DNA of 64,000 nt, from the NCBI RefSeq assembly GCF_009687865.1, contig NZ_BLAE01000003.1, positions 116,873-180,872 of the forward strand, read 5' to 3'. How positions within the stretch are numbered: position 1 is the stretch's first letter; every line of letters starts with the position of its first letter. A program made the position numbers and the translations under genes. Below, one piece after another: positions 1,407-51,340 of this stretch. The notes below the pieces were generated by a model. It had not been told where the DNA came from. It made no database searches and saw only the letters and a program-made list of their open reading frames with translations. Source of the stretch: Acrocarpospora macrocephala (lineage in GTDB: Bacteria > Actinomycetota > Actinomycetes > Streptosporangiales > Streptosporangiaceae).

Positions 1407-3236
1407 TTAGGCGCGGGTGACGATCGGGTCGTGGTAGCCGGATGCCTGGAGTCTGAACAGGCGGGCGTAGAGGCCGTTTTGGGTCATGAGTTCGTCGTGG
1501 CGGCCGATCTCGGCGAATACGCCGTCCTGGAGGACGGCGAGCGTGTCGGCGTGCCGGATGGAGCCGAGTCGGTGGGAGACGAGCACACTTGTCTGGCCGG
1601 TTCGCAGGGTCGCTATGCGTGTGTGGACCTCGTGTTCCGCCTCCGCGTCGAGGCCGGAACTCGGCTCGTCGAGGATCAGGAGATCGCTGTCACGGCGGAG
1701 CATCGCGCGAGCGAGCGCCACCCGCTGCCATTGCCCCCCGGAAAGGAATATCCCGGTGGTGTCGCCATCTTGGTCGGGCTCGTCGATGAACAGTCGAGTC
1801 AGGAGGGTTTCGTAGCCGCGGGGTAGGGAGTGCAGCGTTTCGTCGATTCCCGCATCGTGAGCGGCGGTTTTGATGGCGATTGTGTCCTTCATGAGTTCGA
1901 GCCGCCCGATCGCGATGTTCTCCCGTGCTGACATGTCGTACGCCATGAAGTCCTGGAAGACGGCGCCTATTCTGGCTCTGAGCTCCGCAGGCTCGAAGTC
2001 CCTCAGATCGATTCCGTCCCAGGTGATACGACCTGCGCTCGGATCGTACATACGGGTCAGGAGCTTCACTATCGTGCTCTTTCCCGCGCCGTTCAGGCCC
2101 ACCAGCCCCATCGACGTCCCGGCCGGAATCTCAAGGCGCGCGCCACGGAGAATCCAGGGATGAGCTTCGCTGTAGCGGAACCAGACATCGTGCAGCGTGA
2201 TGCCCTGGGACAGGGAAGGGACGAGTGCGGGGTGGGGTGCCACGACGAGATCTGGTTCTGTGCTCTCGATGGCTACGAAACTCCTGAACAACGCGATCTG
2301 CTCATGGGTTCGCGCCATTTGGCCGATGAGCCCGGCGAGTTGACTCTGCATCCCTCCCACGGCGGCGATGAACATTGAAATGTCGCCGACCAGCAGGGCA
2401 CCGTCATGAGCGCGGATGATGGTCCAGACCAGACCGCTTCCCGCGATCAGTGCCGCCAGGCCGCCAAGCGCGAGCTGGGTTACGAGATCACGCCGATCCA
2501 ACGTCCGGTTCTCGGCATTCGCCGCCTGTCGCTCGGAGACCATCCGGGTATGCAGGAAGGAGCCGATGCCGAACAGCCGGACCTCTTTCGCGGCCTGGCC
2601 GTCGGTCATCAACTGGGCGTAGAAGATCTCCCGTCGTTCGAGCGGACCTAGTCTCATGTGCATGGCGACCCGGCGCCGGGAAAGTGAAATCTCCGCCAGC
2701 AGGGTCGGCACCACACTGATCAGGATCACACCGGCCATGATCGGGCTGAGGGAGAACAGGGATCCGACGAAACCCGCGATGCCCAGGGTCGCTCCGGCGA
2801 TGGCCAGAAACCCGGAGAGGATCTGGCTGGGGGTGCGACCGCCCATGGTCTGGGCCAGCTGCAGTTGGTTGAGAAAGGCGGGATCTTCGAAATGCGCGAG
2901 TCCGGGCAGCCGGTTGAGTGCGACGTACAGCCTGCTCTGCGCCTTCAGCGCGATCAATCTGTCCAACTCTGACTGGCAGTAGCGCGCACCCTCCGCCAGT
3001 GCCTTCGAGACCAGCCCCAGCGTCGCGAGCAGGCTCGCGAGAACGAGCAGCGTTCTCGCTGGAAGGTTCATCACGATGGCGTCCAGAATGAATTTGGTCA
3101 GCCATGCGACGGTGACGGGTACCGCGGCGGTGGTCACGGCGATGAGCACCGCCAGGACGACGAGCCGTGCCCTCGCCTGCCAGGCCAAGGAGAATGCCCT
3201 GGCGGTCGTGTGGACGCTGTCTCGTATTGATTTCAT
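1407..3236 (-). CDS. ABC exporter, fused membrane and ATP-binding domains
   Basis: This 609-residue half-transporter has an N-terminal membrane domain of about six helices (residues 1-310) and a C-terminal nucleotide-binding domain. The latter shows Walker A GLNGAGKST (about 380-388), the signature LSGGQWQRVALARA, Walker B LLILDEPSSGLD and the switch SHRL. There is no N-terminal C39 peptidase domain, so any leader removal must be done by another protein. It is the last gene of the operon beginning at 5189, 48 bp after the MauE-like gene. In that context it most likely exports the Cys/Tyr-rich peptide or its mature product. It probably acts as a homodimer, since no second half-transporter is encoded nearby. 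Confidence 0.85.
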   Translation of the reverse strand: MKSIRDSVHTTARAFSLAWQARARLVVLAVLIAVTTAAVPVTVAWLTKFILDAIVMNLPARTLLVLASLLATLGLVSKALAEGARYCQSELDRLIALKAQSRLYVALNRLPGLAHFEDPAFLNQLQLAQTMGGRTPSQILSGFLAIAGATLGIAGFVGSLFSLSPIMAGVILISVVPTLLAEISLSRRRVAMHMRLGPLERREIFYAQLMTDGQAAKEVRLFGIGSFLHTRMVSERQAANAENRTLDRRDLVTQLALGGLAALIAGSGLVWTIIRAHDGALLVGDISMFIAAVGGMQSQLAGLIGQMARTHEQIALFRSFVAIESTEPDLVVAPHPALVPSLSQGITLHDVWFRYSEAHPWILRGARLEIPAGTSMGLVGLNGAGKSTIVKLLTRMYDPSAGRITWDGIDLRDFEPAELRARIGAVFQDFMAYDMSARENIAIGRLELMKDTIAIKTAAHDAGIDETLHSLPRGYETLLTRLFIDEPDQDGDTTGIFLSGGQWQRVALARAMLRRDSDLLILDEPSSGLDAEAEHEVHTRIATLRTGQTSVLVSHRLGSIRHADTLAVLQDGVFAEIGRHDELMTQNGLYARLFRLQASGYHDPIVTRA

Positions 3237-3284
3237 GGAAATCTGACATCCAAACCATGCCGGGAAATGGCGGGACCCGCTCGT

Positions 3285-3806
3285 TTAGGCGAAGAGATCT
3301 ACCAGGTCGTCCATCAGGATGACCAGAAGCGACAGGACCAATCCCGCGACGATGGTGATTCCTGTTTCCGTGGTCCAAGAGCTGACCCCGACGTCGGCGC
3401 TGAGCATACCGACGACAGCTGCGGCCGCAAGTAAGGTATTGCGCACGATGTGCCGGGCGGAAAATTCCGACGCTTGTCGCCCAAAACAGTTGCAGGCCAC
3501 GGAGCTGCCTCGACGAATCACGGTGATAATCGCCAGACTGAATGCCACGCAGAGTACGGCGGAAAGGGCGAAGGCGTACACGAGCAGAGCCGAGCTCGTC
3601 AGCAGGCCTATCGGTATCGACAGAGCGGCGACCAGCTCGGCAGTTACTATCAGGATTGCGACACTCGGTACGGCCCCGATGGGCAGGAGCCGCATTTCAC
3701 GGACCGAGTCCGTGAACGATGAGAAGTGGAAGATCTTCCCGACGCTCGAGGTAAGGAAGACGGCGACGAGTAGAGTTCCGCTGAACAAGAGTGCATGGTC
3801 TGCCAT
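3285..3806 (-). CDS. MauE/DoxX-family redox-associated membrane protein
   Basis: The 173-residue integral membrane protein has about four hydrophobic segments and a CNCFG motif (Cys105, Cys107) after the third. MauE proteins are known as partners of the thioredoxin-like MauD in forming disulfides in the methylamine dehydrogenase small subunit. No mau structural genes are present here. A TlpA-like redoxin lies two genes upstream and a six-Cys peptide starts the operon. The inferred job is passing electrons from cysteine oxidation into the membrane. The family call is firm from topology and motif; the target is an inference. Confidence 0.75.
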   Translation of the reverse strand: MADHALLFSGTLLVAVFLTSSVGKIFHFSSFTDSVREMRLLPIGAVPSVAILIVTAELVAALSIPIGLLTSSALLVYAFALSAVLCVAFSLAIITVIRRGSSVACNCFGRQASEFSARHIVRNTLLAAAAVVGMLSADVGVSSWTTETGITIVAGLVLSLLVILMDDLVDLFA

Positions 3807-3876
3807 CTAGCCGTCACCCACAACAGTCAGAGGGCCTGGGCCACCGGGAAACAGGCGCCGAGGTTCCATTGAGACG

Positions 3877-4269
3877 CTATATTATCAGCCGCCGTATCAT
3901 TCGCCCCACTACTCGGTCCATCGGAACGAACCCGAAATGACGCGAATCCATACTGGACGGCAGGTTGTCGCCGAGAACGAACACATGGTTCGGTGGCACC
4001 GTTTCCAGCCCGCCCGGGAATCGGTCACCGGAAACAGCCGCGATCCGCTTGATAAGTTGCCCCGGCGAGTCAGGACGCGTGATCACCACAACGTCCCCGC
4101 GCGCATAATGTGACGGACGGCGCGCGATAATGACTCTGTCGCCCGCGTTCAGATGCGGGTGCATGCTCGGCCCATGAACATGCACGACGCCGAACTTCCG
4201 GCGCAGCACGCCAAAGGCAAAAGCTAGACAGAGCGCCACCGAGACAAGGGCTATGTAAGCGAATTCCAT
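3877..4269 (-). CDS. S26-family signal peptidase (type I)
   Basis: The protein is 130 residues if started at the ATG at 4269. It has one N-terminal membrane helix (residues 3-22) and all S26A boxes: GPSMHP with nucleophile Ser35, GDVVVI, LIKRI with general base Lys74, and GDN..SSMDSR at 100-110. It is much shorter than housekeeping LepB and resembles the compact S26 peptidases of actinomycete accessory operons. Upstream in-frame codons would add a low-complexity extension with no helix. It sits between the redoxin and MauE-like genes. The likely substrate is the operon's precursor peptide, whose DAAAS segment could be a cleavage site. Confidence 0.82.
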   Translation of the reverse strand: MEFAYIALVSVALCLAFAFGVLRRKFGVVHVHGPSMHPHLNAGDRVIIARRPSHYARGDVVVITRPDSPGQLIKRIAAVSGDRFPGGLETVPPNHVFVLGDNLPSSMDSRHFGFVPMDRVVGRMIRRLII

Positions 4270-4300
4270 GGCAAGCAACCCCGGTCGAGCAGATAGGCGG

Positions 4301-4825
4301 TTACGCGGGTATGGTGATTCTTGAGTCCGGGCCGATCTCCGAACTGGTCGCGAGCACGTTCCCGACCCCCACGGTGACGAAGACAGGAACTCCGATGACA
4401 CCGAACGCCTTGGCCACGGGCCCATTCGGCGCTTCGACGAGAACCGGGCCCAGCGCCTCCAATGTGGCCATGACATCCCCGCCATAGGCGCCGGAGAGTA
4501 CGGACACGACTGTCCCCTTGTTCATGGCCGCGTAGGAGATGAAAGCCGGCATGGCCTCCTGGCAAGGTTCGCAGCCCGGCGAGAGGAAGGCGAACACCGT
4601 ACCGAATTCGAGGGTGTTACGACTAACCGTCACCCCCTGTGTACTCGTGGCCACAAACCCGCCTATAGGAGTTCCCGGCGATGAGCTCAGTTGGGGGTCC
4701 CTAGCCGGGACGGGCATCACTCCTGCACCCCGCCCAACCTTTCGTGCGATACCTAGGGTGAACACCAGGTTGAGCAGAGTCAGACATAACGTCAGTATTA
4801 GCAGACTTACCTGGAGTACGATCAC
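4301..4825 (-). CDS. Membrane-anchored TlpA/MauD-like thioredoxin-fold protein
   Basis: The 174-residue protein begins with a membrane helix (residues 2-27) and continues with a thioredoxin-fold domain carrying CEPC (Cys85, Cys88) in SPGCEPCQEAMP and a probable cis-proline at GVPVFV (Pro147). The GTG at 4825 is preferred because it overlaps the preceding stop as GTGA and follows GGAG at suitable spacing. An ATG at 4888 in the same frame would add 21 residues inside the upstream gene. The domain should face the outside and handle disulfides, with the MauE-like protein as redox partner. Function in peptide maturation is inferred from the operon. Confidence 0.78.
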   Translation of the reverse strand: MIVLQVSLLILTLCLTLLNLVFTLGIARKVGRGAGVMPVPARDPQLSSSPGTPIGGFVATSTQGVTVSRNTLEFGTVFAFLSPGCEPCQEAMPAFISYAAMNKGTVVSVLSGAYGGDVMATLEALGPVLVEAPNGPVAKAFGVIGVPVFVTVGVGNVLATSSEIGPDSRITIPA

Positions 4826-4983
4826 AATTCGGCTCCGGATAGAAGATGGAGCGGGTGGAGATTTCCGGACACCGGCACCGCAATCCATATCAGCATCACG
4901 ATGCCGGAGATTCCAGCGATCAGATCACCCCACGAGAAGCCGACCGAATTGCGATCGAAGCAGCTCTCTGGGATGATCGGCAT
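4822..4983 (-). CDS. 53-residue single-helix protein, translationally coupled
   Basis: This small frame starts at an ATG inside the stop of the precursor gene (TAATG at 4985-4981). It ends in TGA overlapping the GTG start of the redoxin. The product starts MPIIPESCFDRNS and has one hydrophobic helix, LIAGISGIVMLIWIAVPV (about residues 21-38), and one Cys. I recognise no family. The double stop-start coupling argues that it is translated. It could be a second substrate, an immunity peptide or a small membrane subunit. Ordinary gene finding may miss it because the longer redoxin frame covers part of it. Confidence 0.55.
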   Translation of the reverse strand: MPIIPESCFDRNSVGFSWGDLIAGISGIVMLIWIAVPVSGNLHPLHLLSGAEL

Positions 4984-5189
4984 TAGCAGCTACCGCAGCC
5001 GTAGTCGGTGCTCTGGTAGTAATAGCCACCGCCGCTGGGGTAACACTTGTAGGTGACCACTAACCTCGAGTAGCTCGACGAGCAGTAGTAACAGGCGCGA
5101 CTGTAAACGGTACAGCTGGCCGCCGCGTCGGATTCCGGAAGAACTGCCGACAGCAGTTCATCTCTGAAACGAGCCAAATAGCGCTTCAC
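4983..5189 (-). CDS. Candidate precursor peptide, Cys- and Tyr-rich, 68 residues
   Basis: The GTG at 5189 follows AAGGAAG about 10 bases upstream. The first 25 residues form a charged, amphipathic leader (MKRYLARFRDELLSAVLPES, then DAAAS). The remaining 43 residues hold six cysteines (26, 33, 36, 49, 65, 68) in CYYC and a terminal CGSC, plus ten tyrosines and a GGG run. The leader is not a classical hydrophobic signal peptide. The following genes encode a redoxin, S26 peptidase, MauE-like protein and ABC exporter. A disulfide-rich secreted peptide, perhaps a bacteriocin-like RiPP, is therefore the best reading. I know no named family with this Cys pattern. Confidence 0.65.
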   Translation of the reverse strand: MKRYLARFRDELLSAVLPESDAAASCTVYSRACYYCSSSYSRLVVTYKCYPSGGGYYYQSTDYGCGSC

Positions 5190-5400: not shown

Positions 5401-5666
5401 GGTGGTCGGCGCTGGCGTGGTGTTCGGAGCGGTCCTGGCCTCGCGCATCGCCGACTTCTTGGCCCCGAGGCCGTAAGGCGGCACCGTTCCGGCGTTCCCG
5501 ACCCTGACCGCCCGGAACATGAGGTGCTTGACCTGGTGGCCGCCTGTCGAACAGCCAGAGCGCCGCACGGTTGTTCTTGTCCCAGAAGACCGTGTGTAAC
5601 TATGTGTACTCGGTGCTCAACAAGCTCCAGACCGCCGACCGGGCGGAAGCGATCATCCGCGCTTGA
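5401..5666 (+). pseudogene. Broken LuxR/NarL-type response regulator, C-terminal remnant
   Basis: Three pieces in different frames line up with the end of a NarL-type regulator. They are a linker-like VVFGAVLASRIADFLAPRP up to an in-frame stop at 5474, then FPTLTAR and EHEVLDLVAA across a frame change near 5515. Last comes LFLSQKTVCNYVYSVLNKLQ with ADRAEAIIRA and stop TGA at 5664. The last block is a nearly complete DNA-recognition HTH. The receiver domain is missing and the frame is broken, so this is a pseudogene. Confidence 0.7.
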
Positions 5667-6072: not shown

Positions 6073-6747
6073 ATGAGCGTGGCTGCTGCTTTTGAGCCTG
6101 CTGACGCTCAGCTCAAAGATGCCCTCCTTGCCCTGCTCAAGGTTGCCAAAGAGCAAGGGCGACGTGTCACCCTCACTCGCATGAAAGCGGCGAAGTTGCT
6201 CTACCTGGCCGACCTGGCTGCGGTGAGTGACGGGATGCCGCCCATCAGTGGTGCGAGCTGGAAGTGGCACGACTACGGGCCCTTCGACTACGCGTTGTAC
6301 GACGTGGAAGATCAGCTTCTTTGGTCTAACAAGATGAATCGGCAGGACGGGCGGATCCTCCAGGCAATGCACGGTTCCGTCGTTCTCAGCCTGGCCGACG
6401 ATGTCAAGCAGGTGGAGGATCCTCTTCCGCCGGGCGCGATGGGTATCCTGCGGAGGATTGTGGTCGAGCATGGGGCCAAGAACGCCACCACGCTCAAGGA
6501 TCTGTCATATGCGACCCCGCCGATGGCCGAAGCACAGGCAGGCGGACAACGTGGCGTCGTGCTTAACCTCGACCGCGCGCGCGAGGCCAAGAAGGTCCGG
6601 GCATTGATTGAGCGCCACCGCGCCCTTCTCCAGGACCAAGGCGTCGACCAGGATGACCCGGGCGTGGCCGCCGAGCTGATCGCCGAGCAGACAGAATTTG
6701 ATGAGCTTCGCCGTCGCGCCAACACCAAGGAGCTCGGAGACGAATGA
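6073..6747 (+). CDS. Panacea-domain (DUF4065/SocA-like) antitoxin
   Basis: The 224-residue protein carries the Panacea/SocA-like fold, seen in KAAKLLYLADLAAV and the segment ISGASWKWHDYGPFDYALYD (about residues 38-85). Panacea proteins are known as antitoxins paired with many unrelated toxins. The C-terminal third (EAKKVRALIERHRALLQ onward) is helical and charged. The gene has a strong GGGAGGGGAGGG ribosome site. Its stop overlaps the start of a MazF/PemK-like toxin gene (ATGA at 6744-6747), as expected for co-translated antitoxin-toxin pairs. Confidence 0.75.
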   Translation: MSVAAAFEPADAQLKDALLALLKVAKEQGRRVTLTRMKAAKLLYLADLAAVSDGMPPISGASWKWHDYGPFDYALYDVEDQLLWSNKMNRQDGRILQAMHGSVVLSLADDVKQVEDPLPPGAMGILRRIVVEHGAKNATTLKDLSYATPPMAEAQAGGQRGVVLNLDRAREAKKVRALIERHRALLQDQGVDQDDPGVAAELIAEQTEFDELRRRANTKELGDE

Positions 6748-7115
6748 TTGCCGCTATCCGCAGGGGTAGCGTCTTTCTCGTCAACGACACCGTGTTGACG
6801 CTGCCCCCCAACGACGGCCGCCAGTATCATCAGCAACGCCATGTGGTGGTGATGAGTGGGAACCTCAGGAATTCCGATCCCAACTGGCCGACCGTGCTGG
6901 TTGTCCCTACGTCCACGCAGGGCAAACTGGCCACCGCCTACTGCGTCAAGCTGGACAAGGGTGTAGGGAACCTCCCCAAGTCCTGCTGGGCGCGGGCCAC
7001 GATGCCCCAACCCATCCTGAAAGAGGATTTACGGGACCGTGCCGGTGACCTGCCTCTTCCGTACGTCGATTTGATCGTCAACGGGATGCTCAACTACATG
7101 GGCCTGTTGGATTGA
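6744..7115 (+). CDS. MazF/PemK-like toxin
   Basis: This 123-residue protein starts IAAIRRGSVFLVNDTVLTLP and continues HVVVMSGNLRN, WPTVLVVPTSTQGKL and CWARATMPQPILKEDL. That is the order of beta strands in MazF/PemK endoribonucleases, including the serine/threonine-rich VVPTST strand and the late QP.I/KEDL region. The canonical early motif (RG.V...D) is altered to RRGSVFLVNDT, so activity is not certain. It overlaps the antitoxin gene by four bases. If active it would cleave mRNA until neutralised. Confidence 0.7.
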   Translation: MIAAIRRGSVFLVNDTVLTLPPNDGRQYHQQRHVVVMSGNLRNSDPNWPTVLVVPTSTQGKLATAYCVKLDKGVGNLPKSCWARATMPQPILKEDLRDRAGDLPLPYVDLIVNGMLNYMGLLD

Positions 7116-7162: not shown

Positions 7163-7194
7163 CATTTTGGTTGAGTGGTCCGTCGGAGCCTGCG

Positions 7195-8676
7195 TTAGCG
7201 TGGCATGGTCCCGCGGGAGTCGGCGCGAGCCGCCTCCACCTGGGAGACCAGTTCGGCGAGGGTCGGGGTCTCGAAGAACGTGTCGAGGGTGAGTTCGACG
7301 CCGAGGCGCTTGTCCACCCGGGCGATGATCTGGGTGATCGTGAGCGAGTGACCGCCCAGGTCGAACAGGTCGTCGTCCGGGTGCACCTCCTCGACGCCCA
7401 GCACCTCGCACCAGATCGCGGTCATGACCGCCAGGATGCCCTCGTCGGCGGGACCGGCCGGGGCCGCCGACGCGGGAGCGCTCAGGGAGGCCGGTTCCGC
7501 CGGGTGCGGCGGGGGCAGGTCCTTGAGCCGCTTGTACGGCGTCGCCGCCAGCGCGGCCAGCAACGCGGCCAGGTCGGCGGCGACCAGATCGGCCGACGCC
7601 CGGCTCAGGCAGGCGGGATCGAACGACAACCGCGCGCCCACACCGTCCACAACCTGCACATGCAGGGTGTTCCTGAGCGCGCCGCCGGCGGTCATCCACT
7701 CGACCGAGCTGGCCAGGCCGGGGAACTCGGGATCCGGCGCCGACCGTTTGCGGTAGCTGAGCGATACGGGGGCCAGCGCCGCCCGTGGCGTGATCCCGGT
7801 CACCGCGCGGGCGAGAGGAACGCGGCGGTGGCGGTAGATCTCGCGGAGTTCGGCGCGGACGTTGCGGGCGAACTGGGCGAAGGAGTCGGTCGAGCTCGGG
7901 GTGGTGAAGACGGGCAGCTCGTTGGCGAACAGGCCGATGGTGTCCTGGTCCGCGGCGGTTCTGGTGGAGAGGTCGACGGCGACGGTTTGCGGGCCGGGGC
8001 GGTAGCCGTACAGGAGGGTGTGCAGGAGGGAGACCAGGGCTTCGAAGCGGGTGACGCCGAGCGATTCGGCGAGCTGGCCGAGTTCGGGGTCGAGTTTGAG
8101 GTCGACCGCGTCGGCGGGGGTGGCGCGCAGGGAGAGCGCGGTCAGGCCGGGGAGGGCGAGGTCGACGGGGTCGCGCCAGCGGGGGCGCCAGAATTCCGTG
8201 GCGGCGGCGATGTCGGCCGGTTCGGACTCCGAAGCCGTGGGGGGTGAAAGGGGTGAACCGCTGTAAGCCAGGGCGAGGTCGCGGACCAGGAGGTCCTTGG
8301 AGACGCCGTCGAAGACCGCGTGGTGGGCGACCACGAGCAGCTCGTGCTCGGATCCGGACGAGGTCAGGATGAACCGGGTCAGCGGGCCGGTTGCGAGGTC
8401 GAACCGTACCTCGGCGGGACCTGGTTCGAGCGCGGGCGGCGTCGCGGCGGGGACCAGGCCGACCACGCCGTCGCGGTCGGCCAGGGCCTTGCCCAGCAGC
8501 GGATGGCGTTCGACCACGGCGGCGCACGCGGCGGCGAGCGCGGCCCGGTCCAGCTCCCCGGTGAGCCGGATGAGTAGCGGCATGTGGTGGGCGCGCGGGT
8601 CGCCCCCGAGCCTGTCGGTGACCCACATGCCGTGCTGGGCGGGGGAGGCCTGCTCCCAGATCAGCGACGAGGACAT
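7195..8676 (-). CDS. NRPS protein, condensation + peptidyl carrier domains
   Basis: This 493-residue protein has a condensation domain (residues 1-about 385) with an intact AHHAVFDG motif (His118, His119, Asp123). A Pro/Ala-rich linker leads to a carrier domain with DDDLFDLGGHSLT, whose Ser takes phosphopantetheine. It is the last gene of a five-gene operon transcribed leftward from 14824. There is no adenylation domain, so its carrier must be loaded in trans, perhaps by the acyl ligase just upstream. No thioesterase follows, so product release is unexplained. It starts two bases beyond the stop of the ligase gene. Confidence 0.85.
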   Translation of the reverse strand: MSSSLIWEQASPAQHGMWVTDRLGGDPRAHHMPLLIRLTGELDRAALAAACAAVVERHPLLGKALADRDGVVGLVPAATPPALEPGPAEVRFDLATGPLTRFILTSSGSEHELLVVAHHAVFDGVSKDLLVRDLALAYSGSPLSPPTASESEPADIAAATEFWRPRWRDPVDLALPGLTALSLRATPADAVDLKLDPELGQLAESLGVTRFEALVSLLHTLLYGYRPGPQTVAVDLSTRTAADQDTIGLFANELPVFTTPSSTDSFAQFARNVRAELREIYRHRRVPLARAVTGITPRAALAPVSLSYRKRSAPDPEFPGLASSVEWMTAGGALRNTLHVQVVDGVGARLSFDPACLSRASADLVAADLAALLAALAATPYKRLKDLPPPHPAEPASLSAPASAAPAGPADEGILAVMTAIWCEVLGVEEVHPDDDLFDLGGHSLTITQIIARVDKRLGVELTLDTFFETPTLAELVSQVEAARADSRGTMPR

Positions 8677-8677
8677 G

Positions 8678-10120
8678 TCACTCGCTTTCCTCGCGCGGCG
8701 TCCCGAGCAGGCCGCGCAGTTCGGTCTTGAGGATTTTGCCCGACGGGTTCTTGGGGAGCGTGTCGAGCAGCAGGATGTGCGCGGGGAGCTCGTGCCGGGC
8801 CAGCCGGGTGGCCAGGAACGCGCGCAGGTCGTTGGCGGAGACGTCGGCTACCACGGCGGCGGCCACCGCCGTGCCCAGCGAAGGGTCGGGCACGCCGAAG
8901 ACGGCGGCTTCGACCACGTCCGGATGTTCGTACAGGGCGGCTTCCACCATGATCGTGGAGACCTTGAAGGCGCCGGACTTGACCACGTCGCTCTCGCGGT
9001 CGACCAGGTAGAGGTAGCCCTCCTCGTCGAGGTAGCCGAGGTCGCCCATGCGGATCCAGCCGTCCTTGAAGACCGCGCCGGTGGCCTCGCCGTCGCCGAC
9101 GTACGAGCGGGGGGCCGCGCCGGAGCGCAGCCATACTTCGCCTGTTTCGCCTGGTGGGAGCGTGCCGTCGCCGATCCGCAGGCCGCTGCCGAACGCGGGG
9201 CGGCCGAGCGCGGCCGGACGTTTCGGATCGAAGATCATCACGGTTTGGGCGGGTGCGGCTTCGGTGGAGGTGTAGTAGTTCGTCACCGTCGCCTTCGGGA
9301 ACGCCTTCGTGAGCCGGAGCGCCAGCGCGGGCGGCAGGGCGGCGGCGGCCGAGCCGAGCAGCAGCACCGAGGAGAAGTCATGCCGGTCGGGCGCGCCCGA
9401 GGCGAGGAGCTCGTTGGCCATGGTCGGGACCAGGAAGACCGTGCCGACGCCGTGCGACTCGATCAGGCGGGCGAATCTGGACGGGGTGAACACGGGAGGG
9501 GTGAGCATGGCCGGGAAGGCGTCCAGCGCGTTGAGCAGCATGGCCTGACCGGCCTGGGTGCCGATCGGGAAGGCGTGCAGGAAGTGTTTGGAGTGCCGGA
9601 ACATCCGGCGCGCGGGCGGCCCGCCCCGGCCGAAGGCCAGGTTCGCGTGGGTGGCGCCGACTCCTTTCGGCCGTCCGGTGGTGCCGGAGGTGTAGAGGAT
9701 CTGCGCCAGATCCTTCGGCCGTGGCCCCTCGGGGAGGTCGCCGTGGGCGAGTTCGAGTTCGGTCACGACCGACGACCAGCCTTCGATCTTGGGCGGGCGT
9801 AACCGGGAGGCGTGCACGATGCCCACGGCTCCGCAGTCGCGTACCAGGAACTCCAGCTCGGGTTCGGCCAGCCGGTCCGACAGCGGCACCGCCACCGCCC
9901 CGGCCATCAGCACCCCGACGTACGCCACCGCGTAGTCGGCCCAGTCCCGGGACCCGAACAGCAGCGCCACCCGCTCGCCCGCCCGGGCCGGCAGCCCGCG
10001 CGCCACGGCGGCCGAACGCCGCTCCCACGCCCCGAACGTCAGCGAGTCCACCCCCGCGACCTCGATCGCGACCCGGGCGGCGTCCTCCCGCGCGCGCGTA
10101 CGGAGCAGCTCGGCCAGCAT
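8678..10120 (-). CDS. Stand-alone acyl-AMP ligase of the NRPS operon
   Basis: The 480-residue ANL-superfamily enzyme shows ILYTSGTTGRPKGV (P-loop), YYTSTEAAP, GWIRMGDLGYLDEEGYLYL and a C-terminal NPSGKILKTELR with the catalytic Lys. The residue pattern expected of amino-acid adenylation domains (Asp after the A3/A4 region) is absent. It therefore looks like an acyl- or aryl-CoA/ACP ligase supplying a carboxylic acid to a carrier protein. The ATG at 10120 overlaps the preceding TGA; a GTG at 10123 is equally well placed relative to GGAGG. The acid cannot be predicted from the sequence alone. Confidence 0.8.
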   Translation of the reverse strand: MLAELLRTRAREDAARVAIEVAGVDSLTFGAWERRSAAVARGLPARAGERVALLFGSRDWADYAVAYVGVLMAGAVAVPLSDRLAEPELEFLVRDCGAVGIVHASRLRPPKIEGWSSVVTELELAHGDLPEGPRPKDLAQILYTSGTTGRPKGVGATHANLAFGRGGPPARRMFRHSKHFLHAFPIGTQAGQAMLLNALDAFPAMLTPPVFTPSRFARLIESHGVGTVFLVPTMANELLASGAPDRHDFSSVLLLGSAAAALPPALALRLTKAFPKATVTNYYTSTEAAPAQTVMIFDPKRPAALGRPAFGSGLRIGDGTLPPGETGEVWLRSGAAPRSYVGDGEATGAVFKDGWIRMGDLGYLDEEGYLYLVDRESDVVKSGAFKVSTIMVEAALYEHPDVVEAAVFGVPDPSLGTAVAAAVVADVSANDLRAFLATRLARHELPAHILLLDTLPKNPSGKILKTELRGLLGTPREESE

Positions 10121-11493
10121 CACGGCGCGACCTCCAGCTCACCCGGCCGGGCGTCCCTGAAGGCCGACTCCACCACGAGCTCCTCCACCGCGCGCAGCAG
10201 CCCGACCATCCGGCTCTGCGGCAGGCGGCAGGTGTCGGCGTTCAGGCCGATCGACAGGATGCCGCTCTGGCGGGTCACGAAGAAGCAGAAATTGCAGGTG
10301 AAATGGTCCACCCCCGGCAGCCACTCGATCCGGGAGGACGTCACCGAGGTGCGGATCGCGTCCTCGCCCGGCGAGCTCTCCTGCAGAGCGCTGTGATCGA
10401 CCGGGCGCATGTCGTTGAAGCAGCACGACGGGTCGACCTTGACCGCGCGGTCCGCGCTCACCCGCTCCACCATGGCCTCCCAGGCCAGCTGGTCGTACTG
10501 GGCGTGCCGGTAGGCGCGCATCGCCTCCGGCAGGGTGGCCTCCAGCGTCTCGGCCAGCGTCGCGTCGGGATCGGGGGACATCGTGAACAGGCCGAGCTGG
10601 CTGAGCGAGGTCACCAGATCCCTGGTCTCCGGCCGGAACCGGTTGTGCACGATCGGGGTGATCACGCAGGTCTCGTGCGGGGTGATCGTGCCGATCAGCG
10701 CCGAGACGGCGGTGAGCAGCACGGTCGCCGTGCTCATGTGATGCCGCGCGGCCACGATCGTGACCGCGTCCTCCAGCGCCCGCGACTCCAGCATCGCCTT
10801 GCTCCAGCGCGGCGAGCCCGGCTCGGCGACCAGATCGGGGAACATCGTCGGCGGGCCCTTGCGGTAGCCCGCCTCCCAGTGCGCCAGCGCCCGCTCGGAC
10901 CGGTTCCGCCCCACGCCGGACTCCTGCTCGGCCACCAGATCGAGCACCTGCTGGGACGGCGGCCTGGCCAGGCTCCCGCGCAGCAGCAGCTGGCGCAGGT
11001 CGCGGACCACGATGTCGGCCGCGTAGCCGTCCACGGCGGTGTGGCACAGCACCACCCCGACCTGCCGCACCACGTCGTCGACGGTGATCAGCCCGATCCG
11101 GACCGGCCACTCCTCGACCAGGTCGAACGAGCGCGCGGCCAGATCCAGGACCAGGCCCTCGGCCGCCTTCTCCGCCTCCTGCTCGGTGGCCGCCAGCACC
11201 TGCCGCTCTAGCCAGCCGGTCTCCGACACGATCTGGAACGGCTGGCCGTCCGCGTGGAGGGCGATCCTGGACCGCAGCGAGTCGTGCCGCGCGACCAGCG
11301 CGACCACGGCCGAGGTCACCTGCTCCACCGTGTACGGGCCGCGCCCGCGCGGCATCGGCAGCACCCGCCAGAGGTTGAAATAGTGCGCGCTCGCCGGACC
11401 GGCCTGCCGCATGGCCTCGTAGATGGACCGCTGCCCCCACGCCAGGTTCGCGCGGCCCCCGCGCCCGCCCGAGAAGCGCACGCGCTCGCTCAT
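10120..11493 (-). CDS. Stand-alone condensation domain protein
   Basis: The 457-residue protein is one condensation-type domain. The active-site motif reads LCHTAVDG: the first His of HHxxxDG is Cys150, while the catalytic His151 and Asp155 are kept. It starts with ATGA overlap to the carrier protein upstream and ends overlapping the ligase start, so the genes are co-translated. It probably joins the acyl group activated by the ligase to the aminoacyl carrier. The WxxxR-like and DFG-type later motifs are poorly conserved, typical of free-standing C domains. Confidence 0.78.
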   Translation of the reverse strand: MSERVRFSGGRGGRANLAWGQRSIYEAMRQAGPASAHYFNLWRVLPMPRGRGPYTVEQVTSAVVALVARHDSLRSRIALHADGQPFQIVSETGWLERQVLAATEQEAEKAAEGLVLDLAARSFDLVEEWPVRIGLITVDDVVRQVGVVLCHTAVDGYAADIVVRDLRQLLLRGSLARPPSQQVLDLVAEQESGVGRNRSERALAHWEAGYRKGPPTMFPDLVAEPGSPRWSKAMLESRALEDAVTIVAARHHMSTATVLLTAVSALIGTITPHETCVITPIVHNRFRPETRDLVTSLSQLGLFTMSPDPDATLAETLEATLPEAMRAYRHAQYDQLAWEAMVERVSADRAVKVDPSCCFNDMRPVDHSALQESSPGEDAIRTSVTSSRIEWLPGVDHFTCNFCFFVTRQSGILSIGLNADTCRLPQSRMVGLLRAVEELVVESAFRDARPGELEVAP

Positions 11494-11731
11494 CGCAGCC
11501 TCCCGGCCACGTCCGCGACCAGGTTCGCGAAGTCGTCCACCAGGCCGGGGTCCACGTCCACGCCGAACTCGTCCTCGATGGCGTCCACCAGCCGGATCAG
11601 GCTGAGCGAGGTCACGCCGAGCGCGGCCAGCGAGTGCCGCGCGGCCAGCACGTCGTCGGCCGAGATCTGGTCGTCGGTGGCGGCGGCCACCATGACGGCC
11701 AGCCGGTTCTCCAAGGGGTCCTGCACTATGT

Positions 11732-11735
<4 letters not shown>
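11490..11735 (-). CDS. Free-standing carrier protein (PCP/ACP)
   Basis: This 81-residue protein has the four-helix carrier pattern, with the phosphopantetheine Ser in LGVTSLSLIRLVD (about residue 43). The acidic second helix continues AIEDEFGVDVDP. GTG at 11735 overlaps the stop of the large NRPS gene as GTGA, and its own stop overlaps the next ATG. It is probably loaded by the stand-alone ligase two genes downstream. Confidence 0.82.
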
Positions 11736-14824
<3,089 letters not shown>

Positions 14825-14999: not shown

Positions 15000-17900
15000 T
15001 CAACCTGCGGGGAAGAACGAGCCGTAGTCGGCCAGCGCCATCGCGACGTCCGCCTGAGCCCAGAATCGGTGGTAGGTGAACGTCGGCACCGCGCCGCCGT
15101 TCAGGTAGGTCTGCACCTTCGGCCAGTCAGGGTCGCTGGTGTAGAAGGAGCGGATGCCGAGGAAGGTCTTGCCCGGCACGATGGTGTCGCCGTTGGGCAT
15201 GACCCCGCTGTAGCCGGACGGGATGTACAGACCCGTCTGGTTGGCCGAGGTCCACACGTCGTCGAACCTGTTGTAGTCGGCGCGCGGTTCGGCTGTGACG
15301 ATGCCGCGGGAGTCCTTCAGCAGGAGCAGCCGGTCCAGCAGGCCCTTGGCCGTGTTCTTGGCCGAGATACCGAGCGTGCTGGTGGGCTCCTTGGCGGCGT
15401 AGTAGATCAGCGTCCGGGCGTACGCGGCGGCGACTCCGACGTCCTGGGAGAACGTGCGGACCGTCACGTGCAGGCCGGGGTTGTCGGCCGGAGTGCCCGT
15501 GGTGCTGCTGAAGCTGGCCGAAGGAGCGCCGCTCCAGTCCATCTCGCTGGGGATCTGGAAGTTGCTGCCGGTGCCGAGCGTGGTCTGCGAGATGGCCCAG
15601 GCCACCCACTTGTCCAGCACGGTCTTGGCCATCGCGTTGCCGGTCACGTAGTACAGCTCCGCGAGGCGCTGCACGCCCCAGCCCTGGAAGCCGAACCACT
15701 GGTTCGAGGGCGGGTCGTGGTAGACCGGGTCGACGTCGTACGTCATGCCGAAGAACTGCGGAGCGCCCGCCGGCCGGGCGGCGTACGCGCCGTCCCAGCT
15801 GTTGGTCGCGCCACCGGCGATGGCGCCCTCAGCCGACTGCAGCCACTTGTAGAACTGCACCTGCCGGGTGAGGCTCTGGTTCCAGTCGGCGGCCGCGGTC
15901 GGCGACTGCGGGCGCAGCGCCGTCGGACCGGCCGGGGACAGCGCCCACGCGGCGAGCGGGTTCTGGTAGCCGCCGTGGTTGTGGCTGGAGCCGATCCGCC
16001 ACGACCACGCGCCGTCCAGCGCGCCGCCCCACGCGAAGTACCAGTTCAGCAGGTACGCCGAGCTGCTCTTGCCGGAACCCGCGGTACAGGTGGGCGAGGC
16101 GCAGCCGGGGTTCTTGAAGTACTTGTCGTACATCGCGTAGCGCAGGTAGTCGCCCAGCTTGGCGGCCTTGGTGAGGGTCCCCGAGATCTGGGACTGGTTG
16201 CCCTGCTCGGTCGCCCAGGTCAGCGCCCAGTAGGCGGCCTGAACGGCGCGGGCGTCGGCGTCCGGGGCGTTGGTGTAACGCCACTGGGCGGCGGCGGTGC
16301 CCTGGATGAACAGCGGCTGGTAGCCCTGGCCGGACTGGCCGTACCGCTGCGTCTCGCACGAGGGGTGCGGGACGGTCTCCCAGACCGACTCCTGCGGGCC
16401 GCGCTGGTAGGTGTTGATGTAGGTGACCCGCTTGGTGTTGTCGCCGCACTCGGTGAGCGAGCTGCCCCGCCCGGTGCCGTAGCCGTAGACGTCGTCGACG
16501 TCGATCAGCCAGTGCATGGCGTACATGTTGCGGTTGCCGTACGTCGAGGCGAGTTCGTTGGCCAGCGGGTCCTGGCCCGCGACGACGCTGGTGCTGAGCG
16601 GCGACGGGTACTGGCTCGGCTGGTTGAACTCGGGCGCGTAGTCGGCCGGGTCCGCCGGGTTGTAGCTGGTCTGGCCGCCGGGCTGGCCGGCCGCGGACGG
16701 GATGATGTAGTTCTCCATCAGGGTCCAGGCGGCGTTGAACGGCGCCCAGTTCTGGGTGACGCGGCCGTACTGCGCCTCCAGCCAGAGCAGGAAGCTGAAC
16801 GCCTCCGACGTGGTCTCGTGACCGTGGTCTGGGGCCTCCACCATGAGCGTCTCGACCGAGTGGTACGGGATGCCCTCAGGCGAGAGGTAGCCGCTCGCGG
16901 ATGCCTTCAGCTTGTCGTACTGGGCCTGGAACTCGGTCAGGTACGCGTTGGTGCTGCCCGGCTCGTCGTCGGCCTCGGTCGCGGTGACCGGAACCGTGGT
17001 CAGGCCGCTGGAGGCGACGTTGATGGTGCGCGAGCCGTTGGTGTTGTCGGCGTCCTGCGCCGCCGAGAGCGTGACGCTCTGCGCGGTGGCGAAGTTGGCC
17101 GGAGTGAAGGTCAGCGTGGCGCCGCCGGTCACGGTGATGTTGGTGTCACCGGTGGCCGCGGCGGTGTTGGTCACCGTCACGTTGGCGGTCGGCGCGATGG
17201 CCAGCCGGACGCTGTAGATCGCGGTGGAGCCCTCCGGCACGCTCAGGCTGGTCGGGGTGACGACCAGGGACTGGGTGGTGACCGGGTCGTCGTCCGCCTC
17301 CGTCGCCGTGATCGGGGTGACGGGCCCGCCGGAGCCACAGGTCAGGTTGATGGTCCGGGTGCCGTTGGTGGTGTCGGCGTCCTGAGCGGCGCTCAGGGTC
17401 ACGTTCTGCGGCGTCGCGAAGTTGGCCGGGGTGAAGGTCAGCGAAGCGCCGCCGGTGACGGTGATGTTGGTGTCACCACCGGTCGCCGCCGCGCTGGTCA
17501 CGACCACGTTCGCGGTCGGCGCCTGGTTGAGCCGCACCGAGTACGTGGCCGTGCCGCCCTCGGGCACGCTCACCATCGTCGGGGTCACGATGCAGGACAG
17601 CGTCGTGGTCGGATCGTTGTCCACCTCGGTCGCGGTCACCGCCACCGTGGTCAATCCGGCGGAGGCCACATTGATGGTCCGCGTCCCGTTGGTGGTGTCG
17701 GCGTCCTCGGCCGCGGCCACGGTCACGTTCTGCGGGGTGGCGAAGTTCGCCGGCGTGAACGTCAGGCTGGCGCCGCCGGAGACGGTCAGGTTGGTGTCCC
17801 CGGTGGTCGCGGCGGTCGAGGTGACCGTCACGTTGGCCGTGGGCGCCGACTGCAGCCGCACCGAGTAGGTCGCGGTGCCGCCCTCGGGCACGTTCACGCT

Positions 17901-18359
17901 GGTCGGCGTGACCACCAGGGCCTGGGTCGTCACCGGGCCAGTACACGGGGTGCCGTTCAGCGAGAACGCGGTCGGGTTGGTGTTGGTCCCGCTGAAGGTG
18001 AAGTTGGCGCCGGGCTGGACGACCGCGTTGGCGGCCAGGTTGGGCGCCCAGGAGGGGGCGTCGATGGTGACGTTGGCGCCGGACTGGCTCCAGGTGCCTT
18101 CCCAGCCGTTCTGGAGGGTCTGGTTGCCGGGGAAGGTGTAGGTGATCCGCCAGTTGGACACCGGGTCGCCGAGGTTCTGGAGCCGGACGGACGCGCCGAA
18201 GCCGTTGCCGCCCTCCCAGGTCTTCGTGTATGTCACCTGACAGGCCACGGCGGCGTTCGCCGGGGTCGAGGGGACGGTGGCAAGAGCGAGGGCAGTGGCG
18301 AACGCAGTCGCCACCGCCATCAAACGCCCTCGCCAGGATCTTGATCTCAAACTGATCAT
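15000..18359 (-). CDS. Secreted family 48 cellulase with CBM2 and three tandem repeats
   Basis: The protein is 1119 residues from the ATG at 18359. A signal peptide (about 1-36, ending ANA) is followed by a CBM2 (about 39-140, two terminal Cys, Trp-rich face). Three near-identical about 100-residue Thr/Val-rich modules come next (149-469), then the GH48 catalytic domain (about 470-1119). The catalytic domain contains EAPDHGHETTSEAFSF with the probable proton-donor Glu. GH48 enzymes are reducing-end processive cellobiohydrolases. GGGAG directly precedes the chosen ATG with almost no spacing, so an upstream ATG at 18413 or an internal start remains possible. A perfect CelR/CebR operator lies about 75 bp upstream, pointing to cellobiose-type induction. 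Confidence 0.92.
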   Translation of the reverse strand: MISLRSRSWRGRLMAVATAFATALALATVPSTPANAAVACQVTYTKTWEGGNGFGASVRLQNLGDPVSNWRITYTFPGNQTLQNGWEGTWSQSGANVTIDAPSWAPNLAANAVVQPGANFTFSGTNTNPTAFSLNGTPCTGPVTTQALVVTPTSVNVPEGGTATYSVRLQSAPTANVTVTSTAATTGDTNLTVSGGASLTFTPANFATPQNVTVAAAEDADTTNGTRTINVASAGLTTVAVTATEVDNDPTTTLSCIVTPTMVSVPEGGTATYSVRLNQAPTANVVVTSAAATGGDTNITVTGGASLTFTPANFATPQNVTLSAAQDADTTNGTRTINLTCGSGGPVTPITATEADDDPVTTQSLVVTPTSLSVPEGSTAIYSVRLAIAPTANVTVTNTAAATGDTNITVTGGATLTFTPANFATAQSVTLSAAQDADNTNGSRTINVASSGLTTVPVTATEADDEPGSTNAYLTEFQAQYDKLKASASGYLSPEGIPYHSVETLMVEAPDHGHETTSEAFSFLLWLEAQYGRVTQNWAPFNAAWTLMENYIIPSAAGQPGGQTSYNPADPADYAPEFNQPSQYPSPLSTSVVAGQDPLANELASTYGNRNMYAMHWLIDVDDVYGYGTGRGSSLTECGDNTKRVTYINTYQRGPQESVWETVPHPSCETQRYGQSGQGYQPLFIQGTAAAQWRYTNAPDADARAVQAAYWALTWATEQGNQSQISGTLTKAAKLGDYLRYAMYDKYFKNPGCASPTCTAGSGKSSSAYLLNWYFAWGGALDGAWSWRIGSSHNHGGYQNPLAAWALSPAGPTALRPQSPTAAADWNQSLTRQVQFYKWLQSAEGAIAGGATNSWDGAYAARPAGAPQFFGMTYDVDPVYHDPPSNQWFGFQGWGVQRLAELYYVTGNAMAKTVLDKWVAWAISQTTLGTGSNFQIPSEMDWSGAPSASFSSTTGTPADNPGLHVTVRTFSQDVGVAAAYARTLIYYAAKEPTSTLGISAKNTAKGLLDRLLLLKDSRGIVTAEPRADYNRFDDVWTSANQTGLYIPSGYSGVMPNGDTIVPGKTFLGIRSFYTSDPDWPKVQTYLNGGAVPTFTYHRFWAQADVAMALADYGSFFPAG
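16953..17915 (-). repeat. Three tandem about 325-bp coding repeats in the cellulase linker
   Basis: Modules at 17915-17592, 17591-17265 and 17264-16953 each read V-T-P-T..VPEG.TA.YSVRL, GDTN.TV.GGA.LTFTPANF, DAD.TNG.RTIN and end TATE.D. They look like Calx-beta-type beta-sandwich modules and act here as spacers between the CBM2 and the catalytic domain. High similarity at DNA level suggests recent duplication or conversion. Confidence 0.85.
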
Positions 18360-18432
18360 CTCCCAGCCATATGGGGTCCACGCCGTCCCGGTTTTGCGGG
18401 TGTACGGCTCCAAGCGCGCCCAACCCCCTCAT

Positions 18433-49391: not shown

Positions 49392-51335
49392 GTGGCAAGC
49401 ACAGCTGGCTGGGTCCGCAGGCAACTGCCGGGCATCGTGGCACTGGTGGCGCTGGCGGTGGCGTACGTCATCGTCAAGCTGCCCACCCCGTCCCCGGCGG
49501 AACGGGCCGACATCGCGAGCACGTACGCGTTCCAGCCGATGAACATCGCCATGCCGAGCGGGTTCAAGCAGCAGACGATCCGCCGCGTCAACAAGGACTA
49601 CAAGCACATCGACGCGTGGATCTCCTCGGTCGGCTCCGGCATCGCCATGAACGATCTGGACGGCGACGGCCTGGCCAACGACCTGTGTGTCACCGACCCG
49701 CGCATCGACCAGGTCGTGGTCACCCCGACCCCCGGCCTGAAGTCCGACCGGTACGCGCCGTTCGCGCTGGTCCCGGCCGGGCTGCCGATGAACGACGTGA
49801 TGGCCCCGATGGGGTGCGTGCCCGCCGACCTGAACGAGGACGGCCGGATGGACCTGCTGGTCTACCTGTGGGGGCGGACGCCGATCATCTACCTGGCCAA
49901 AGCGGATGCGAAGGGCCTGAGCGCAGGGGCGTACCAGGCGATCGAGGCCGTGCCGCCGCGGAGCAGCACCCCGGGCTACACCGGCCCGCAGTGGAACACC
50001 AACGCCGTGGTCGTCGACGACTTCGACGGCGACGGCCACGACGACGTATACGTGGGTAACTACTTCCCGCACGGCCCGGTCCTGGACGACCGGCTGAGCG
50101 GCGGCGTCGTCATGAACGCCTCCATGTCGCGCGGCCTCAACGGTGGTGAGGACTACTTCCTGCGCTGGACCGCGTCCGGGCCGGACTCGGTCACCTTCCA
50201 GCAGATCGACAACGGGCTGCCGCGCACCGTCTCCGCGGGCTGGGTGCTGGCCGCCGGGGCCACCGACGTGGACGGCGACATGCTGCCCGAGATGTACCTC
50301 GGCCACGACTTCGGCCCCGACCGGATGCTGCACAACGCGTCTACCCCGGGCCGGATCAGGTTCACCGTGGCCGAAGGCACCAGGACCCCGCTGATCCCCA
50401 AGTCCAAGGTGGTCGGCCGGGACTCGTTCAAGGGCATGGGCGTCGACTTCGGCGACCTCAACGGCGACGGCCTCTACGACATGTTCGTCAGCAACATCAC
50501 CACCTCCTTCGGCATCGAGGAGAGCAACTTCGCCTTCATGAGCACCGCGAAGGACAAGAGCCAGATGCGCGCCGACCTGACCTCCGGGCACGCGCCCTGG
50601 GAGGACCTGAGCGCGCCCCTCGGCCTGGCCTGGTCCGGCTGGGGCTGGGACCTGAAGATCGCGGACTTCGACAACAGCGGCCAGCCGGCCATCGCGCAGA
50701 CCACCGGCTTCGTCAAGGGCGAGGTCAACCGGTGGCCGCTGCTGCAGGAGCTGGCCACCGCCAACGACGGCGTGCTCGAATTCCCGATGTGGTGGCCGAA
50801 CGTGACGGCCGGGGACGACGTCGCCGGCGGCCAGACCTTCGCCTTCTACGCCAAGGGCAAGGACGGCTACTGGAGCAACGTGGCCGGCGAGCTCGGCCTG
50901 GCCATCCCCGTGCCCACCCGCGGCGTCGCCACCGGTGACGCGGACGGAGACGGCCGCCTGGACATGGCGCTCGCCCGGCAGTGGGACGAGCCCGTCTTCT
51001 ACCAGAACACCAGCCCTGCCAAGGGCGGCTTCCTCGGCCTGCGGCTCACCCACGAGCAGGACGGCGACATCAAGCCCGGCTCGCCGGTGGTGGGCGCGCA
51101 GGTCACGGTGACCATGCCCGGCGGCGGCAAGCAGGTGTCCCGGGTGGACGGCGGCAGCGGCCACTCCGGTAAGCGCAGCAGCGAGGTGCACTTCGGCCTC
51201 GGCGACAACGTGACCGGCCCGCTCCAGGTGAACCTCTGCTGGCGCGACCGCACCGGTCAGATCCACGAACAGAATCTGCAGCTGACGCCGGGCTGGCACA
51301 ACATCCAGCTGGGCGCTCAGGCAACGGAGAGGTGA
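49392..51335 (+). CDS. unbV: Enediyne cassette protein UnbV (FG-GAP repeats, ASPIC/UnbV domain)
   Basis: The 647-residue protein has one N-terminal membrane helix (about 14-29) and at least six Ca-binding-type FG-GAP repeats: NDLDGDGLAND, ADLNEDGRMDLLV, DDFDGDGHDDVYV, GDLNGDGLYDMFV, ADFDNSGQP and GDADGDGRLDMAL. The C-terminal ASPIC/UnbV domain runs from GFLGLRLTHEQDGD to the end. GTG at 49392 follows GGGAGG. UnbV is one of five genes conserved across enediyne clusters. Its location, probably outside the cell and membrane-anchored, is inferred from the helix. Confidence 0.92.
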   Translation: MASTAGWVRRQLPGIVALVALAVAYVIVKLPTPSPAERADIASTYAFQPMNIAMPSGFKQQTIRRVNKDYKHIDAWISSVGSGIAMNDLDGDGLANDLCVTDPRIDQVVVTPTPGLKSDRYAPFALVPAGLPMNDVMAPMGCVPADLNEDGRMDLLVYLWGRTPIIYLAKADAKGLSAGAYQAIEAVPPRSSTPGYTGPQWNTNAVVVDDFDGDGHDDVYVGNYFPHGPVLDDRLSGGVVMNASMSRGLNGGEDYFLRWTASGPDSVTFQQIDNGLPRTVSAGWVLAAGATDVDGDMLPEMYLGHDFGPDRMLHNASTPGRIRFTVAEGTRTPLIPKSKVVGRDSFKGMGVDFGDLNGDGLYDMFVSNITTSFGIEESNFAFMSTAKDKSQMRADLTSGHAPWEDLSAPLGLAWSGWGWDLKIADFDNSGQPAIAQTTGFVKGEVNRWPLLQELATANDGVLEFPMWWPNVTAGDDVAGGQTFAFYAKGKDGYWSNVAGELGLAIPVPTRGVATGDADGDGRLDMALARQWDEPVFYQNTSPAKGGFLGLRLTHEQDGDIKPGSPVVGAQVTVTMPGGGKQVSRVDGGSGHSGKRSSEVHFGLGDNVTGPLQVNLCWRDRTGQIHEQNLQLTPGWHNIQLGAQATER

Positions 51336-51340
51336 CTCCT

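Follow-up and report, generated by a model that had tools for sequence, protein, structure and literature searches.

A candidate RiPP-like cassette for a secreted disulfide-rich peptide in Acrocarpospora macrocephala and related actinomycetes

Introduction

What does a short gene for a Cys- and Tyr-rich peptide do beside genes for a redoxin, an S26 peptidase, a MauE-like membrane protein and an ATP-binding cassette (ABC) exporter? Such a group occurs in Acrocarpospora macrocephala, in a stretch of 64,000 nucleotides (assembly GCF_009687865.1, contig NZ_BLAE01000003.1, positions 116,873 to 180,872 of the forward strand), which as a whole is called the window here. The cassette runs from 5189 to 1407 on the minus strand, in the order peptide, redoxin, S26 peptidase, MauE-like protein, ABC exporter. 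The original prediction held that this operon oxidises, trims and exports a three-disulfide peptide. The co-occurrence of the four machinery genes, the parity of the Cys number and an AxA motif in the peptides support that proposal, whose chemistry is deduced from sequence.

We consider it likely that the locus is a cassette of the kind that makes ribosomally synthesized and post-translationally modified peptides (RiPPs), in which a secreted disulfide-rich peptide would be exported by the ABC protein, cut after AxA by the S26 peptidase, and supplied with its disulfides by the redoxin and the MauE-like protein. The genes, their linkage across genera, a common leader, the AxA motif, an even number of Cys and a hairpin are all present in the DNA.

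Results

The precursor gene is conserved in related species

The 68-codon gene at 5189-4983, which starts with GTG and encodes a peptide whose final 43 residues include six Cys and ten Tyr, was found as originally predicted. It is more than a chance frame, since it is kept in five relatives from three genera at 57-94% identity (A. pleiomorpha 94%, A. catenulata 81%, A. corrugata 65%, Microbispora hainanensis 60%, Microtetraspora glauca 57%), and since the proportion of nonsynonymous differences (pN) lies below that of synonymous differences (pS) in all 15 pairs of these window-type peptides. The six Cys are all retained in the relatives, and in 15/15 pairs the leader has a lower pN than the core. 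The complete cassette is present in A. pleiomorpha, A. catenulata and Microtetraspora glauca, whose loci were fetched by MauE alignment. Compared with A. catenulata and M. glauca, the homologous DNA block around the cassette has its limits near 1416-1426 and 5248.

Microbispora hainanensis has the peptide, redoxin and MauE genes, with the S26 match split over two frames and the ABC gene on the opposite strand. We notice a second short frame in this species (L033, 3439-3654), which encodes eight Cys and adjoins ABC, redoxin and S26 genes divergent from the window-type cluster; it did not match the leader profile described below.

The structure predicted for the window peptide from a six-sequence alignment has a mean predicted local distance difference test (pLDDT) score of 76 and a predicted template modelling (pTM) score of 0.51. 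A leader helix at residues 3-16 is of low confidence (block means 58 and 51), the linker at residues 17-23, adjoining the proposed cut, has a pLDDT below 50, and a three-stranded core is predicted from residue 31 with block means of 88, 92, 85 and 87. Comparison of the model with solved structures gave no convincing fold match, and the precursor has no match in Pfam or NCBIfam.

The peptide and the four machinery genes occur together

Relatives of the window MauE protein were found in at least 105 of 200 Streptosporangiales genomes at 1e-5, and MauE-family genes in 76 of 396 genomes of the phylum at 1e-8. We surveyed 80 regions around the best-scoring MauE matches among the matches listed, a sample that is not random and includes near-duplicates. 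A first leader profile, built from 19 seeds, identified a leader peptide together with all four machinery genes, in several orders, in 44 of these regions, with any ABC homologue of 150 residues counted.

The original prediction called for a search for S26, MauE-like and TlpA-like genes beside short Cys-rich frames, and named homologous loci without such a frame as a finding that would speak against it. The search returned a short Cys-rich gene at 48 of the 51 four-gene loci and at none of the nine loci with MauE alone. The 48 comprise the 44 found by the seed profile, L033 found by direct similarity, L092 found by the iterated profile, and L061 and L085, whose peptides lie inside longer frames and were found by pattern and eye; the other loci are L046 and L055, with weak candidates (E 0.017 and 0.0095), and L034, which is decayed. 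Within the 60 non-seed regions, the seed profile found a peptide at 30 of 34 four-gene loci.

After iteration, the leader profile (xxDRLLxxxVPxxxAxA) matched 92 open reading frames in 103 loci at E<=1e-3; five of these frames belong to duplicate loci. Reversed DNA of the same loci gave no match, the best control having an E of 0.0046. As in RiPP systems, one leader is common to precursors with differing cores, and a protease, a modifying enzyme and a transporter are encoded beside it (48/51 four-gene loci).

Leader-profile peptides occur in Streptomyces clavuligerus, S. atratus, S. nigrescens and two other Streptomyces, and also in Nonomuraea, Actinomadura, Micromonospora and Promicromonospora. 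Among the 22 named loci, 16 have a leader-profile match and L145 was recognised by similarity; no peptide was found at five, four of them from Nonomuraea and one from a Thermomicrobiales metagenome-assembled genome. The order in S. clavuligerus and S. atratus is one or two short hypothetical genes, MauE, a hypothetical gene, ABC and S26, and the precursors are annotated as 'hypothetical protein'.

A reverse search started from the peptide, with a profile of 30 whole peptides, some of which come from genomes then searched. It detected the family in 92 of 200 Streptosporangiales genomes and in 15 of 296 genomes of the class, three of the latter outside the window's family. We picked 40 of these matches by hand and excluded regions already fetched, which favours loci lacking MauE; nearby were S26 (35), redoxin (35), ABC (32) and MauE (18) genes, and three peptides had none of the four. 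These neighbour counts show that the steady core of the cassette is the peptide, the redoxin, the S26 peptidase and the ABC exporter, and that MauE is frequent without being universal. No substitute for MauE was found in the MauE-less loci of this sample.

The window genome itself has a second precursor at C10:124107-124283 (L233), adjoining redoxin, ABC and S26 genes without MauE, and a third at C78:38709-38885 (L234), adjoining a redoxin gene and a weak MauE match. Elsewhere, at L230, L232 and L238, leader peptides occur without any machinery gene within ~6 kb and may be orphan or trans-processed precursors. Four leader peptides stand in tandem at L238 (G045:C65).

Most cores have an even number of Cys and follow an AxA motif

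Dropping the five matches in duplicate loci and adding the window peptide gave a set of 88 peptides, of which 56 are non-redundant (cores <60% identical); entry to the set required at least three Cys. The number of core Cys is even (4, 6, 8, 10 or 12) in 54 of the 56, and under stricter clustering in 45/46, 30/31 and 21/21, which supports full pairing into disulfides. In 53 of the 56, an AxA motif occurs after the VP motif and before the first core Cys, compared with a mean of 33.5 and a maximum of 46 among 2000 shuffles of these segments, and this supports cleavage by the S26 peptidase. None of the 88 peptides exceeds 1.6 on the Kyte-Doolittle scale in any 19-residue window, and they do not qualify as Sec-dependent by this measure.

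Cores vary widely while leaders are kept, tandem copies occur, and the cores appear by eye to be rich in Tyr and Trp. Thirty family peptides scanned against Pfam and NCBIfam matched no known family; a placement in an unrelated structural family, the other result said to count against the original prediction, did not appear.

The machinery proteins carry the motifs of their families

The S26, MauE-like, redoxin and ABC genes are present on the minus strand as predicted, judging by Pfam and NCBIfam matches and motifs (Table 1). The S26 peptidase scores 98.1 bits against TIGR02227 (signal peptidase I; cut-off 47) and falls below the cut-off of TIGR02228. Against TIGR02754, the nickel superoxide dismutase (Ni-SOD) maturation protease, it reaches 53.6 bits, short of the cut-off of 63.25, and is not assigned to that family. 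Its relatives keep the Ser and Lys/Arg patterns in 56/56 cases and a GD..DSR pattern in 47/56.

The MauE-like protein belongs to PF07291 (E 1.2e-22, 81.0 bits, gathering score 27); CxCFG is present in 57/57 and H..RN in 54/57 relatives. The redoxin matches Pfam AhpC-TSA only at E 0.049, and its CxxC is kept in 50 of the 51 relatives examined. Its start is more likely GTG 4825 than ATG 4888, because the first codons of the long form are broken in A. pleiomorpha and the GTG 4825 start codon is retained in all five.

Residues 31-597 of the ABC exporter are covered by an MsbA-type model, and 51/56 relatives have the Walker A pattern. As originally proposed, it lacks a peptidase domain: Pfam gave no C39 match up to E 1, and the protein does not qualify as a peptidase-containing ABC transporter.

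Among the Pfam and NCBIfam matches listed for six translated proteins (for the ABC protein, the best 25 of 190 NCBIfam matches), there is no lanthipeptide, YcaO or radical-SAM family, in agreement with the earlier claim that no lanthipeptide, thiazole or radical-SAM enzyme is present. LanB, LanC or LanM was not among them either, and the cassette does not class as a lanthipeptide, thiopeptide or sactipeptide locus by these matches. The same matches include neither the B protease nor the C macrolactam synthetase of lasso peptides, and no RiPP recognition element (RRE) or kinase is among the families found for the cassette proteins.

A hairpin lies between the peptide and redoxin genes

The one-helix protein originally placed after the peptide gene is very probably not a gene, since related species do not keep its reading frame intact. 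In A. pleiomorpha, indels flank the helix and move the two ends of the frame into other frames; the A. catenulata sequence also has indels and no longer contains the ATG; and in Microtetraspora glauca the hydrophobic stretch is absent at this position.

The same intergenic DNA contains a conserved hairpin. Across five species, three of them close kin, 65 of 65 cells are paired and two pairs have changed on both sides; shifting the partners by 1-3 columns reduces pairing to at most 54%. Shuffle controls match the covariation score and percentage paired in 13/500 cases, the both-side changes in 74/500 and the number of pair types in 500/500, and are only moderate as a control. One of the five single-sequence folds is unremarkable (z -0.76), and no Rfam family was matched above its gathering score.

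Across the family, the stretch 3' of the peptide stop has a mean fold-stability z of -1.54 (n=55), with 21/55 below -2. After other genes the mean z is -0.01 to -0.39 and values below -2 occur in 3/57 (MauE), 7/56 (S26), 3/51 (redoxin) and 9/56 (ABC) cases, a weak control in that the stretch after the peptide is often intergenic and those after the other genes may more often overlap coding sequence. A hairpin at this place would probably keep the precursor mRNA more abundant than the downstream mRNA.

Table 1. Features of the cassette, with positions in the window.
Feature	Position	Strand	Description
Precursor peptide gene	4983..5189	-	GTG start, 68 aa; kept in relatives; leader family; outside Pfam/NCBIfam
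Leader	5189-5118	-	residues 1-24, KRYLARFRDELLSAVLPESDAAA
Proposed core	5117-4986	-	residues 25-68, 44 residues, six Cys, ten Tyr
Proposed AxA site for the S26 peptidase, cut after A24	5118..5126	-	codons A22-A23-A24; AxA common in family
'One-helix' frame	4822..4983	-	very probably not a gene
Conserved 13-bp hairpin, no U tract	4872..4907	-	between peptide and redoxin genes; near-invariant DNA
Thioredoxin-like protein (redoxin), CEPC, N-terminal hydrophobic segment	4301..4825	-	likely start GTG 4825; longer form from ATG 4888
S26 peptidase, bacterial type, N-terminal hydrophobic segment, Ser (GPSM) and Lys (KR) motifs	3877..4269	-	PF10502 E 2.3e-26
MauE/DoxX-type membrane protein, CxCFG motif (CNCFG here)	3285..3806	-	PF07291
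ABC exporter, membrane and ATPase parts in one chain, 609 residues	1407..3236	-	without C39 peptidase domain

Discussion

From the genes we infer the biochemical steps, their order, the membrane side, what the redoxin and MauE do, how the hairpin acts and what activity the product has. A precursor whose leader is soluble and not of the Sec type, and whose core has 44 residues including six Cys, would be moved across the membrane by the ABC protein, which lacks a C39 domain. A membrane-bound S26 peptidase at the outer face may stand in for the missing C39 domain and cut after A22-A24, and the CxxC redoxin would pair all core Cys, giving three disulfides here, and would in turn be re-oxidised by the MauE-like protein. 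Overall, such a cassette would be a split version of a peptidase-containing exporter. The peptide probably acts in antagonism or signalling, which the conserved leaders, variable cores and tandem copies fit.

Several observations weigh against this mechanism. In A. corrugata (L143, 7722-8507), the peptide and MauE are kept, and the redoxin, S26 and ABC genes were not found in the fetched region. No immunity gene was recognised for the cassette. Two peptides, both at L042 (6689-6853, 10592-10753), have seven core Cys; they could pair through an intermolecular disulfide. The parity counts treat related cores as independent, which they are not fully, because the peptides are related; the stricter clusterings were added for this. 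The lenient scoring of ABC genes in the 80 regions and the weak control for fold stability count on the same side.

Further points of this kind concern the order of the steps. Ni-SOD maturation proteases cleave in the cytoplasm or during export, and the resemblance to them (53.6 bits against TIGR02754) led us to consider that the S26 peptidase may cut inside the cell. A hydrophobic segment within the first 70 residues occurs in 26/56 S26 and 24/50 redoxin relatives, with starts chosen by script and uncurated; the anchor is clear in the window proteins, and because this is about half, an anchored, outside topology is only tentative for the family. MauE was not found near 22 of the 40 peptides in the sample leaning toward MauE-less loci. 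By analogy with the lasso peptide sviceucin, in which deleting the redoxin gene sviF leaves disulfide formation intact (PMC9266682, in the part compared), the redox genes may be helpers. All of these would suit the same cassette working in another order, with the S26 peptidase cutting in the cytoplasm or during export, the Cys oxidising spontaneously outside, and the redoxin and MauE acting mainly in isomerisation or quality control. We regard this alternative as unlikely, given that the window S26 peptidase fits TIGR02227 far better (98.1 bits against a cut-off of 47) and has an N-terminal hydrophobic segment, and that a redoxin gene adjoins 35 of the 40 peptides.

In the maturation of methylamine dehydrogenase, the client of MauE and MauD is an enzyme subunit, and an S26 peptidase and an ABC exporter are not known to take part in it. 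The likeness to the cassette is that a MauE-family protein and a second accessory protein, MauD, serve a disulfide-bearing client (PMC7794033, in the part compared). Through this link, and with cores that look rich in Tyr and Trp, the peptide could be a small subunit or a cofactor-bearing structural protein like the beta subunit of methylamine dehydrogenase, classically the client of MauE and MauD. We find that improbable, as the cassette holds no large partner enzyme in a conserved block that ends near 1416 and 5248, and as widely differing cores behind kept leaders, and tandem copies, speak against it. Still less probable is a secreted metallopeptide whose Cys bind metal instead of forming disulfides. 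The high Cys content would allow it, and even parity alone suits some metal sites too, but a CxxC redoxin and often MauE are part of the cassette, and the sole match to a metal-site family among the 30 scanned peptides is a zinc-ribbon at chance level (E 0.042). As MauE-family genes are common in the phylum, short Cys-rich frames might even adjoin unrelated redox genes by chance. This we hold to be scarcely credible, with the peptide absent from all nine MauE-alone loci, no leader match in reversed DNA, and a window-type peptide 57-94% identical in five relatives under pN < pS.

How far does a secreted, S26-cleaved disulfide peptide match systems already described? The comparisons that follow draw on parts of the papers cited. 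decRiPPter (Kloosterman et al. 2020, PMC7794033) lists three candidate families from Streptomyces whose clusters contain MauE, one of them also MauD, and whose precursors have eight or more Cys. They are computational candidates in which these proteins are proposed to modify RiPP precursors, with no experiment on them in the part compared. As in the window cassette, MauE stands beside Cys-rich precursors; the terms S26 and thioredoxin have no occurrence in the main text, and the part compared mentions neither a shared leader, an AxA site or Cys parity nor any occurrence outside Streptomyces. Compared by description only, these candidates are likely the same family as the window cassette. Our data thus probably concern the same kind of system on a far wider scale, and add the leader, the AxA site, the parity, the S26 peptidase and the hairpin. 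The earlier claim that the route goes under no name holds only in part, because the idea had already been listed as the MauE-linked Cys-rich candidates of decRiPPter.

Class I lasso peptides such as sviceucin are likewise ribosomal disulfide peptides of actinomycetes with a redox pair, sviE (DoxX) and sviF (thioredoxin); their leader removal and ring closure depend on B and C enzymes, of which the window cassette has none, and no S26 peptidase is named in the part compared (PMC9266682). The linear polyphosphorylated peptides (LPP) of Bacillota are RiPPs whose leader is removed by a signal-peptidase-type enzyme (SipW-like). That enzyme is of archaeal type (catalytic S29, H68, D93), with an RRE protein partner and a phosphorylated product (PMC13381572), whereas the window S26 peptidase is bacterial (TIGR02227 above, TIGR02228 below cut-off). 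TMcins resemble the window cassette in that one compact group of genes encodes a precursor, a protease, an oxidase and an ABC exporter of a disulfide peptide, and differ in having a transmembrane precursor, an S2P protease, an oxidase of the DsbA type and one disulfide (PMC13252029). Actifensins are secreted actinobacterial peptides with six Cys, a mass six hydrogens low, diverse cores and multiple copies; they differ by a subtilisin-like protease, several ABC genes and a G-X-E leader before the mature part, and in the part compared no word starts with peptidase or oxidoreductase (PMC6989792).

As far as these descriptions show, none of the systems compared (decRiPPter candidates, lasso peptides, LPP, TMcins, actifensins) has this combination. 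Disulfide-bearing ribosomal peptide systems are a known kind, and there is a fair chance that the cassette represents a class of its own. We lean towards an unnamed class of considerable size, found in close to half of the Streptosporangiales genomes sampled, whose members are secreted peptides rich in disulfides. In this class a bacterial-type signal peptidase acting on a non-Sec leader would replace C39, a redoxin and often MauE would form the disulfides, and a hairpin would set the precursor dose.

If this is true, the 4-12 core Cys would form between two and six disulfides, and the freely exchangeable cores would amount to a scaffold library of natural bacterial origin and a source of useful scaffolds. 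Conotoxins follow a comparable design logic. Removal of a non-Sec leader by a signal-peptidase-type enzyme, together with oxidative folding by dedicated proteins, would then be a widespread logic of RiPP maturation. The cassette belongs to a large, mostly overlooked family outside Pfam and NCBIfam coverage, and the leader profile lets annotators find precursors now called hypothetical. MauE/DoxX proteins would gain a testable client; in the parts compared (PMC7794033, PMC9266682) their role is called speculative or ambiguous.

Genes around the cassette

Upstream of the cassette, at about 5550-5666 on the plus strand, a fragment resembles by eye the end of a LuxR-type helix-turn-helix regulator. 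Two overlapping genes at 6073-7115 look like a toxin-antitoxin pair, the second being PemK/MazF-like (PF02452, E 1.7e-7) and the first having no Pfam match. Genes of the nonribosomal peptide synthetase (NRPS) type occupy 7195-14824 on the minus strand; condensation, AMP-binding and carrier domains lie at 11732-14824, and the others were judged by eye. The cassette of A. pleiomorpha also adjoins DNA 95% identical to 7166-13212 in this NRPS region. A large GH48 cellulase with CBM2 follows at 15000-18413. Farther away, 49392-60362 contains an FG-GAP/ASPIC-UnbV gene, a polyketide synthase (ketosynthase, acyltransferase, ketoreductase and dehydratase, KS-AT-KR-DH, 52228-58032) and a P450 gene, a set that we take to resemble an enediyne polyketide synthase cassette.

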